DNA of 20,791 nucleotides from a virus. Positions 2,695 through 4,469 of this stretch are shown here, piece after piece. A program made the position numbers and the translations under genes. The notes beneath the pieces are model-generated. The model made no database searches and had not been told where the DNA came from. It saw only the letters and a list, made by a program, of their open reading frames with translations. The number at the start of each line of letters is the position of its first letter. Positions within the stretch are counted from its first letter, which is position 1. The DNA lies in the IMG/VR virus record IMGVR_UViG_3300042345_000306, positions 1 to 20,791 of that record; one strand, written 5' to 3'.

Positions 2695-3444
2695 TTATAT
2701 TATTTGTCCGTTTTGATCCAATGTCATATCCATTTCCGCTAATTGGTGGCAAAACAATTTGTATGCCTCACCTTTGCATTCTGCATTGAATAATTTGTCA
2801 TCAGTAAATTTTGGCTTCAATCGTGTTTTGATTTGTTCACGATCCGTATCAGGGCAAACCCAAATTCCAAATTTTACTAAATAATCATACAAATGTGCCA
2901 ATCCTTTTGGCCAATCAAATTTGCCACCTGTTGCATCCAATGATTTGATTTTAGCAACATATGCATTTACATTATAAATTGCCAACTCTTTCAATTCTGC
3001 ATCAGATGGCACAGGCTTTTTTTCTTCTATTTCTGGCCTTTTAACTAATTTTGTTTCCTGCCTTGCATATTCAATGTATGCGTTCATTATCCGGCCAAAG
3101 TATTCACACGAAAAATTCTCATAACATTTACAATCAGTATTTAATTTGCCTGCAACTGCATATTCAAATGCAATAGCTATTTCCTCCGGTGTTTGATTTC
3201 CATAATTTGATTTGATAAATGCAAGCAATACGTATTTTTCCTCATCTGTTGGCAAATTTGATCCACGTAATCCAACCATTAACATTGCCAAACGCAAAAC
3301 CTGTTTTAATTCATCCTCAGTTCGATTGCGAATGTTTGGTGTGCTTTGTGCCTTAATTATCAAATTGGCTGTTCCCTTACCAATTTCGTAAGGCTTCATT
3401 TCGTGCCGCACTTGTTCCAAGTTTTTCACCGTTTGAATTTCCAT
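2695..3444 (-). CDS. Probable replication protein (possible helicase-loader partner)
   Basis: The protein has 249 residues, mostly helical, starting MEIQTVKNLEQVRHEM. Visible features are a helical core with LKQVLRLAMLMVGLRGSNLP and EEKYVLLAFIKSNYGNQTPEEIAIAFEYAVAGKL, then a YFGRIMNAYIEYARQE helix and a C-terminal half with no metal site. I cannot name the family. The position directly after, and 68 nt overlapping, a DUF4373 initiator-like gene mirrors the initiator/loader pairs of other phages, so a replication role is likely. The open frame runs upstream to 3621, but that part is a shadow of the initiator gene. The ATG at 3444 has the good leader AACAGCAACAACA. Confidence 0.7.
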   Translation of the reverse strand: MEIQTVKNLEQVRHEMKPYEIGKGTANLIIKAQSTPNIRNRTEDELKQVLRLAMLMVGLRGSNLPTDEEKYVLLAFIKSNYGNQTPEEIAIAFEYAVAGKLNTDCKCYENFSCEYFGRIMNAYIEYARQETKLVKRPEIEEKKPVPSDAELKELAIYNVNAYVAKIKSLDATGGKFDWPKGLAHLYDYLVKFGIWVCPDTDREQIKTRLKPKFTDDKLFNAECKGEAYKLFCHQLAEMDMTLDQNGQII

Positions 3445-4069
3445 TGTTGTTGCTGTTAAATTTATTCTTATTTGCCATCCATGTGCTAATGCGCCTGCTA
3501 ATATCAAAGAATTTTTCTGCTTGCCATCTTTCTTTGCCTTTTTTGTCTTTTTCTGTCCAATAAGAAAGAAAATTATCATATTGATTTCCAAGATCAAAAA
3601 TGTGTGGTGACAATAGGTCACTAAACACTATTTCATTTACTTTATTTTCATTTTCTTTTATTTCATTTACTTTACTTTCCTTTCCTTTGTTGAACGGTCG
3701 TTGAACGGTCGTTGAAATTCGTTTTTCTGCTGATGCTTTACCTGCCATTTTACGTTGCTCTTTCATCTTAAAATATGGCTCTAAATAAACCAACATTTTA
3801 GGTGAAAAGAATTTTTGATCCACATCAATTTCAAATAATTCATAATTACAAATCGTTGTCCTAATCTTTGCCTCTGATACACCAAATTCATCTGATAACA
3901 AATCCAGATCATCCATTGGGTACATCAAATCTTGTTGCTCTCTTAATGTTTCCAACAACATAAAATAAATGCCATATCCTTCAACTCCCAATTCCCTGCG
4001 CAACCTGCGGATTTTACGATCGTGCCTCGCATTACAGAAATGCGGAAAATAAAATGCCTCTTTGTCCAT
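3377..4069 (-). CDS. DUF4373 (Lin1244/Lin1753-like) replication initiator-like protein
   Basis: The protein has 230 residues. Residues 1-100 match the DUF4373 N-terminal domain: AFYFPHFCNARHDRKIRRLRRELGVEGYGIYFMLLE, then a winged-helix-like segment with SDEFGVSEAKIRTTICNYELF. Such domains resemble the DNA-binding parts of phage and plasmid replication initiators. Residues 105-150 are a low-complexity linker containing the repeat KVNEI...KVNEI, and 150-200 form a second small domain with WQAEKFFDISRRISTWM. The end is Asn-rich (about 202-213). The gene carries 11-bp direct repeats beside a T-rich tract (3629-3716), as in lambda O, where the origin lies inside the initiator gene. It is preceded by the structured RNA element at 4079-4187. 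Confidence 0.85.
   Translation of the reverse strand: MDKEAFYFPHFCNARHDRKIRRLRRELGVEGYGIYFMLLETLREQQDLMYPMDDLDLLSDEFGVSEAKIRTTICNYELFEIDVDQKFFSPKMLVYLEPYFKMKEQRKMAGKASAEKRISTTVQRPFNKGKESKVNEIKENENKVNEIVFSDLLSPHIFDLGNQYDNFLSYWTEKDKKGKERWQAEKFFDISRRISTWMANKNKFNSNNNGNSNGEKLGTSAARNEALRNW
3629..3716. repeat. Candidate replication origin: 11-bp iterons plus T-rich tract inside the initiator gene
   Basis: On the plus strand GTTGAACGGTC occurs at 3689-3699 and 3700-3710, followed by a partial copy GTTGAA at 3711-3716. Eleven is not a multiple of three, so the DNA repeat is not produced by a protein repeat. The adjoining 60 bases (3629-3688) are almost free of G on the plus strand and contain TATTTCATTTACTTTA twice (3629-3644 and 3659-3674, 30-bp period, encoding the KVNEI repeat). 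Iterons beside an easily melted tract within an initiator gene is the lambda-O-type origin layout. Origin function is inferred. Confidence 0.5.
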
Positions 4070-4078
4070 TAGATTTTT

Positions 4079-4175
4079 AAAAAAATAAAGCCTGAATGCG
4101 TAGGAGTGCAGACAGGCTTTGTGGTTCTTAAACCCAATTAATCACCGGAAAACTCCTACCCTTTCCGCTGATTAT
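4079..4175 (-). ncRNA. Candidate structured small RNA/attenuator with kissing loops
   Basis: Read on the minus strand, the element contains three hairpins. Hairpin B (4174-4139) has 6 bp, a G/G mismatch, 6 bp (CGGAAA/TTTCCG) and a 10-nt loop holding GTAGGAGT. Hairpin C (4134-4123) is GGTT/AACC with a 4-nt loop. Hairpin A (4120-4087) is AAAGCCTG/CAGGCTTT, a 2x2 internal loop, TGC/GCA and an 8-nt loop ACTCCTAC. The loops of A and B are perfectly complementary over 8 nt, which predicts a kissing interaction. Hairpin A is followed at once by ATTTTTTT, so it is also a good intrinsic terminator. A promoter-like TATATTTG ends 5 nt before hairpin B. It may be a free small RNA of about 95 nt or a leader attenuator of the DUF4373 gene, which starts at 4069. 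Confidence 0.55.
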
Positions 4176-4196
4176 GAAACAAATATAAATGTTTCA
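4175..4196 (-). promoter_or_regulatory. Promoter-like -7 box inside an inverted repeat
   Basis: The minus strand reads TATATTTG at 4187-4180, a perfect match to the Bacteroidetes -7 consensus TAnnTTTG. No TTG is present at the expected 19-nt distance upstream, so the -33 half is weak. The box lies in the inverted repeat TGAAAC-N10-GTTTCA (4175-4180 and 4191-4196), which could be an operator or a small hairpin. The stop codon of the upstream gene (4194-4196) lies in one arm. Confidence 0.45.
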
Positions 4197-4469
4197 CATT
4201 AATAAACTACCTTTTAACTGCTTAAATTTAAAAAGGTGTCCAAATTGTGGATGTTCTAAAACAAATTTACGTGCATACATTGGCGCAAAATTGTTGTTGA
4301 TTTTGAATGGATCACCATTGGTGGTGAACTGAAATTCAAAACGCATTTTTTGGAATATGTATCCTGATCCAATTACCTTGCGATTTTGCTGAATTAACTG
4401 CATTGCAATGGCTTTGTACAACTCATAAAGATGCGGATTGGCCTGATGATATTGCTGAAACGTTACCAT
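4194..4469 (-). CDS. Conserved phage protein, function unknown
   Basis: The protein has 91 residues and resembles a widespread phage family of unknown function. It starts with FQQYHQANPHLYELYKAIAMQLI, contains GSGYIFQKMRFEFQF, then the diagnostic GDPFKINNNFAPMYARKFVLEHPQF (53-77) and a short basic end. In other phages relatives sit in the early/replication region near recombination and replication genes, as here. The ATG at 4469 follows CTAAACAACAAAAAT, the best local leader. It is the last gene before the structured RNA element. Confidence 0.85.
   Translation of the reverse strand: MVTFQQYHQANPHLYELYKAIAMQLIQQNRKVIGSGYIFQKMRFEFQFTTNGDPFKINNNFAPMYARKFVLEHPQFGHLFKFKQLKGSLLM

Follow-up and report, generated by a model that had tools for sequence, protein, structure and literature searches.

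The element in front of a replication initiation gene

The DNA analysed here is a stretch of 20,791 nt (positions 1 to 20,791 of the IMG/VR virus record IMGVR_UViG_3300042345_000306); the whole stretch is referred to as the window. The open reading frames that read as genes lie on its minus strand. One of them, with its ATG at position 4069, codes for a Lin1244_N-type protein whose match to PHROG 2562, replication initiation protein, bears out the original prediction of an RNA element located just before an initiator gene. Upstream of the element, small genes and the gene of an ERF annealing protein are found. On the minus strand from 4187 to 4079, the order is a promoter box, a spacer of 6 nt, the hairpin P1, a linker containing the mini-hairpin P2, the hairpin P3 and, directly after P3 (4086–4079), an A followed by seven T. 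Nine nucleotides (∼10) separate this T-run from the start codon.

Table 1. Positions of the downstream gene and of the parts of the element in the window
Feature	Position	Strand	Evidence
Lin1244_N / replication initiation protein gene, downstream	3377–4069	−	PF14297, E 2.4e-15; PHROG 2562, E 6.2e-18
Bacteroidota −7 promoter box TATATTTG	4180–4187	−	Sequence; boxes in related leaders
P1, 5′ hairpin, 12 bp with one mismatch, loop G-GTAGGAG-T	4140–4173	−	Fold, −13.5 kcal/mol
Kissing strand 1, GTAGGAG	4153–4159	−	Covariation with kissing strand 2
P2, mini-hairpin GGTT-TAAG-AACC in the P1–P3 linker	4123–4134	−	Fold; linker hairpins in relatives
P3, terminator hairpin, 8-nt loop ACTCCTAC	4087–4120	−	Fold, −14.9 kcal/mol
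Kissing strand 2, CTCCTAC	4100–4106	−	Covariation with kissing strand 1
Terminator T-run, 7 T	4079–4085	−	Sequence

The coordinates and the description of the element given earlier hold: folding again yielded the 12 bp with one mismatch of P1 (5 bp, a G·G mismatch and 7 bp) and the 8 + 3 bp of P3, which consists of an 8-bp outer stem, a 2 × 2 internal loop and a 3-bp inner stem. Both hairpins of the two-hairpin layout that had been proposed are real, but the element is larger, as the third, small hairpin P2 (4134–4123) lies between them. The P1 loop GTAGGAG(T) and the P3 loop (A)CTCCTAC are complementary over 7–8 nt. The eight-base complementarity originally reported is present in the window, but only 7 bp (GTAGGAG/CTCCTAC) are invariant and the eighth pair is lost in relatives. 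The fold energy of the element corresponds to z = −5.65, with none of 200 shuffled sequences equally stable, and our architecture finder, which reported nothing in five dinucleotide shuffles per strand, detected a single element in the window.

Two further features were noticed in the window. An imperfect inverted repeat (TGAAACATTTATATTTGTTTCA, window 4170–4197) overlaps the promoter box; it occurs in some close relatives only, corresponds to CATTA-TATTTG-TAATG in L012 and L028, and is perhaps an operator. A second short promoter–terminator unit lies on the minus strand at window 7740–7660, after a metallophosphoesterase gene, with the box TAGTTTTG followed by AAAGGGCA...TGCCCTTTTTT; a unit resembling it (TAGGTTTG ... 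CCCCATTGG...GGTGGGGATTTTT) is found at the same place in L058, L061, L063, L105, L115 and L116.

Covariation of stems and kissing loops in related phages

Related loci were gathered by protein searches, which yielded 34 and then 80 of them. A covariance model (R1) built from P1, P2 and P3, with the loop–loop (kissing) helix left out, gave 71 strong matches, generally with a single match in each phage record. The plus- and minus-strand versions of the stem-loops both score in some loci; the copy with box, T-run and open reading frame was the one counted. In the covariation alignment, which holds 45 matches (43 distinct), the kissing helix is paired in 99.0% of the cells, and its three central pairs show 39 double changes among the 43 distinct relatives. 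When the kissing partners were slid against each other by 1–3 columns, pairing of the whole structure fell from 94% to 35–47%. Of the 12 pairs of P1, 10 show double changes, and 97.9% of the cells are paired; in the inner stem of P3 pairing reaches 100%, and each of its three pairs is doubly changed. For P2 the value is 83% on an imperfect alignment, and its counts are weak since MAFFT misaligns this hairpin; the median number of linker hairpins is one per leader (141 leaders). A direct example is provided by L115 and L422, which differ by five substitutions, four of them forming two compensatory pairs, one of which lies in the kiss. This pattern indicates that the structure of the element is under selection.

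The loop words found in this first architecture (type 1) are GTAGGAG, GTGAGAG, GTGGTAG, GTCGGAG and GTCAGAG. The original prediction had likened the two loops to a Shine–Dalgarno core and its complement; we reject this reading, because an AGGAG-like word is not conserved among the relatives and the purine strand sits in the other loop in the second architecture described below. Since the words differ and the purine strand is swapped, complementarity is the only property of the loops that is kept. In the 59-kb record of L015 (G003) the element occurs twice, in two differing versions separated by ∼31 kb. This spacing is close to the length of one phage genome, and the contig may join two related phages.

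A second architecture and turnover before Lin1244 genes

Loci without a type 1 match carry another RNA (type 2) at the same place before the Lin1244 gene. It starts with a 6-bp P1 bearing a 14-nt loop, followed by a long terminator hairpin that contains an inner stem; the loop–loop match comprises 8 bp and its purine strand is now part of the terminator. The type 2 kiss is paired in 100% of the cells, with double changes in five of eight pairs, and a model of it (R3) identified type 2 in 25 of the loci checked, including loci with open reading frames inserted before Lin1244. Loop–loop pairing was therefore kept while sequence and polarity changed. We looked for compensatory changes in stems and loops among relatives, as the original prediction implied, and found them in type 1 as well as in type 2.

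An element lies upstream of all 95 distinct Lin1244-type proteins that were checked, 93 of them detected by script and the other two being L194 and L281. Where open reading frames are inserted before Lin1244, the element remains directly before the first of them. This site between terminator and Lin1244 takes up varied open reading frames (L005, L007, L008, L011, L052, L069, L111 and L114); the protein in L007 contains the motif TDPPY and may be a DNA methyltransferase. A tree of the Lin1244 proteins requires at least 31 changes of loop word and at least six swaps between types 1 and 2, both figures being parsimony counts on a quick tree in which many forks are weakly supported.

Distribution among phages

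Viral contigs were scanned with a pattern made of a loop pair and GCTTTTT. The scans yielded at least 120 stretches each for GTGAGAG and GTAGGAG, 91 for GTGGTAG and 95 for GTGGAAG, a word that was absent from the earlier set of loop words, compared with three for the one scrambled word tried (GAGTGGA). The pattern matches are not all real, and some lie inside coding sequence. After filtering, 161 distinct elements were retained, 158 of which have the start of an open reading frame at most 60 nt from the T-run, most of them at 11–21 nt. The compact RNA originally proposed, equipped with a terminator and a promoter-like box of its own, agrees with the box and T-run read in the window and with the boxes present in 134 of 141 GTNNNAG leaders, where they nearly always end 19–20 nt before the kissing 7-mer. 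Within the leader a second TAnnTTTG box occurs in only two of the 141. On inspection of the sequences, the TAnnTTTG box is replaced by a sigma-70-like −10 box in phages whose G+C content is close to 0.5.

The genes downstream of the elements include Lin1244_N, HTH_36, DUF6291, BRO-N, helicase, CHC2 primase and pRha/KilAC antirepressor genes, and the families of DUF6291 and L139 match proteins of cultured phages annotated as replication protein or replisome organizer. As read from the sequences, phages that are unrelated to one another share the design of box, P1, kissing terminator and start codon, which they place before genes for replication proteins, helicases, primases or antirepressors; hundreds of phages preserve it, with the letters of the two loops changing together. 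The element has a defined structure, its pairs covary, and it is coupled in position to the gene that follows.

Four cultured phages show the layout as well. In Flavobacterium columnare phage FCL-2 it precedes gp54 (CATCCAC/GTGGATG), and in the FCL-2 relative V186, read by eye and folded, it is found at the equivalent position and has a different word (GTAGAGAG/CTCTCTAC). Flavobacterium phage tooticki6-1 has it before gp32 (GTCGTCG/CGACGAC, with an 8-nt P3 loop) and Bacteroides phage B40-8 before a Rha regulator gene (CCGCCAA/TTGGCGG). The strict finder missed these four, which were found at looser settings that gave five chance hits per 349 kb of shuffled strand sequence; we accepted them on the grounds that the box, P1, the terminator, the kiss and a start codon all occur together, and each single case taken by itself is weaker evidence. 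A BLAST search of the element against cultured phages returned nothing useful. Among Bacteroidota genomes the GTGAGAG pattern was found in none of 395, a scan covering too few bases to claim absence, and seven Bacteroidota genomes gave marginal model matches that lack the kissing architecture.

Seven phages (L058, L166, L238, L313, L320, L393 and L431) carry two kissing-terminator elements before different genes, and the two loop words differ in all seven. In another phage group with a G+C content of about 0.5 (L181, L304, L493, L502 and L558), GTNNNAG/CTNNNAC words occur in a branched RNA; here the second strand lies in a bulge of a terminator-like hairpin that is followed by another conserved stem, and the RNA is not directly before an open reading frame.

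A putative kissing-assisted leader terminator

The element is a real and previously undescribed kind of phage control RNA with a putative role. We lean slightly towards a phage leader RNA with an intrinsic terminator assisted by the kiss, which would release an RNA of ∼95 nt and limit read-through into the replication operon. That the element is transcribed and terminated, in which direction it would control the operon and what would regulate it are points that we infer. At the sequence level it has the parts of an intrinsic terminator leader (attenuator), namely a promoter, a terminator hairpin with U-tract and a start codon, with no other promoter. The distance of ∼10 nt between terminator and ATG leaves no room for a promoter, so the gene would need read-through from the promoter of the element or from that of an upstream operon.

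Transcription would start a few nucleotides after TATATTTG, at the base of P1, which would fold first and expose its loop. As P3 emerges, its weakly closed 8-nt loop, held by the 3-bp inner stem above the internal loop, could pair with the loop of P1, and this pairing may help the terminator hairpin to nucleate and to form at the U-tract. Most transcripts would then stop and be released as the ∼95-nt RNA, while the fraction reading through would be the mRNA of the replication operon; anything that occupied the loop of P1 or P3 would be expected to alter read-through. Assistance by the kiss is favoured because the inner part of P3 is weak and the loop duplex, computed as a free duplex, contributes roughly −9 to −11 kcal/mol. 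P3 alone, with its 8-bp outer stem, T-run and −14.9 kcal/mol, might terminate without the kiss. The loop 7-mers of the element are not enriched elsewhere in the phage DNA, either near the element (0.034 versus 0.037 per kb) or in whole loci (34/16 versus 38.4/19.8), which argues against a separate target. The branched relative in the other phage group, which is not directly before an open reading frame, counts against the leader–terminator model.

Alternative explanations

A rough geometric estimate bears on whether the kiss forms within one molecule. A straight rod of P1, kiss and P3 would measure ∼98 Å, while the linker reaches ∼56 Å (median) with P2 formed and 126 Å when open; by this coarse estimate almost every one of the 141 leaders seems to have a linker that, once P2 has formed, cannot span a straight rod. 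A kiss in cis would therefore need either the opening of P2 or sharp bending, and kissing complexes that are bent do occur. The same shortfall makes intermolecular pairing, as in the packaging RNA of phi29, a serious rival. Released leaders could use P1 and P3 to bind leaders still being transcribed from other genome copies, or form head-to-tail dimers, so that termination would be promoted as phage copies rise; the loop would be a specificity code, and co-infecting phages with another code would be unaffected. Copy-number or incompatibility control of this kind would fit the frequent change of code and the swaps of type on the Lin1244 tree (at least 31 and at least six), the different codes of FCL-2 and V186 at the corresponding place, and the phages with two elements, whose loop sequences always differ, although seven out of seven is a small sample and only suggestive. 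However, both loops reside on one RNA, so that a kiss in cis competes. The central pairs of the kiss are also about as variable as the stem pairs of P1, a pattern that calls for no diversifying selection. We regard control by kissing in trans as rather unlikely. Speculative, and on the whole unlikely, is the wider proposal of a common RNA device in phages of several bacterial groups, in which the exchangeable word (mostly GTNNNAG/CTNNNAC) would serve as an RNA incompatibility code between genome copies, timing or limiting early replication and separating co-infecting phages.

Another explanation takes the ∼95-nt RNA itself as the product, a stable small RNA that would act on host or phage targets via another segment; the kiss would merely give a compact fold, and the downstream gene would live on leaky read-through. 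The element's own promoter box and terminator suit such a product, as does the branched relative, which is not leader-like, and the Gifsy-1 RNA IsrK shows that one promoter can make both kinds of transcript (PMC4825925). Against this stand the location immediately before a start codon, which hardly varies, the lack of enrichment of any other complement of the loop word in the phage and the absence of a visible conserved seed in unpaired regions other than the loops, and we consider a small-RNA product improbable.

The P4 CI RNA and the P1 C4 antisense RNA (RF01695) are phage leaders that control replication or antirepressor operons by RNA pairing. The elements studied here likewise lead replication or antirepressor operons, but a lysogenic immunity RNA of this type is very improbable because no third complementary site was found and no Phage_integrase in 22 records. 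A further complementary target site, a feature of C4 and P4 CI, was not enriched around the element or in whole loci, and neither the window nor any of 21 related loci matched RF01695 at the gathering score. Phage_integrase was detected in none of the 22 phage records (some of about 31 kb and possibly fragments), while 14 of 14 control genomes were positive, and the genome collection contained a single, fragmentary Lin1244 relative.

Isolated 7-bp matches do arise by chance, but an ordinary strong terminator whose loop complementarity is a by-product or coincidence is hardly credible in view of the covarying kiss in types 1 and 2 and the scan counts for real and scrambled words (at least 120, 91, at least 120 and 95 versus 3), and the compensatory changes in the kiss refute chance complementarity.

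Comparison with known systems

The element matters as a compact, widespread RNA architecture, absent from Rfam, at the point where many apparently virulent phages begin their replication operon. Should termination prove to require the kiss, the element would be a clear natural example of a terminator controlled through a tertiary loop–loop contact; should the kiss act between molecules, it would be a phage counterpart of plasmid incompatibility. Both readings can be tested directly, since examples are available in cultured phages of Flavobacterium and Bacteroides.

In agreement with the original statement that no named RNA class has this layout, searches of Rfam with the window and 21 related loci, at gathering and at loose thresholds, matched no family at its gathering score; the best sub-threshold match was SpF36 with 25.5 bits versus a cut-off of 48. 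Literature searches for the layout of box and kissing terminator found nothing, and the phage and terminator passages of a published set of 104 candidate RNAs contained no fit.

The best functional analogy is IsrK of prophage Gifsy-1. Transcripts from its promoter are reported to end at the terminator of the small RNA or to read through into an mRNA, and the long transcript is a target in trans of the short one (PMC4825925). Common to both would be a phage promoter that gives rise to either a terminated small RNA or a read-through mRNA. Compared by description only, IsrK differs in that the abstract of that study describes no kiss between a 5′ hairpin and a terminator loop, in its genes and in being a single prophage locus. 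The packaging RNA of phi29 is likewise a phage RNA with two different hairpins and complementary loops; it is part of the packaging motor, and its loops pair between molecules head to tail through a 4-bp kiss (PMC7357161). The element studied here differs by a kiss of 7–8 bp, by the use of a terminator loop as one of the partners and by its place before replication genes. It is also unlike the P4 CI and P1 C4 RNAs, as it has no C4 match and no third complementary site and occurs in phage records without Phage_integrase.

The rep genes of the plasmids pT181 and pIP501 are controlled by attenuators whose pairing partner is an antisense RNA made separately, from the opposite strand. They resemble the phage element in being leaders of a replication initiator, in terminator formation that depends on loop–loop pairing (as proposed here) and in a loop that sets specificity; in contrast, the phage element carries both loops on one RNA. 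The RNA class is undescribed in the libraries searched, while the principle of leader control by kissing loops, as far as we infer it, would have analogies among known systems.
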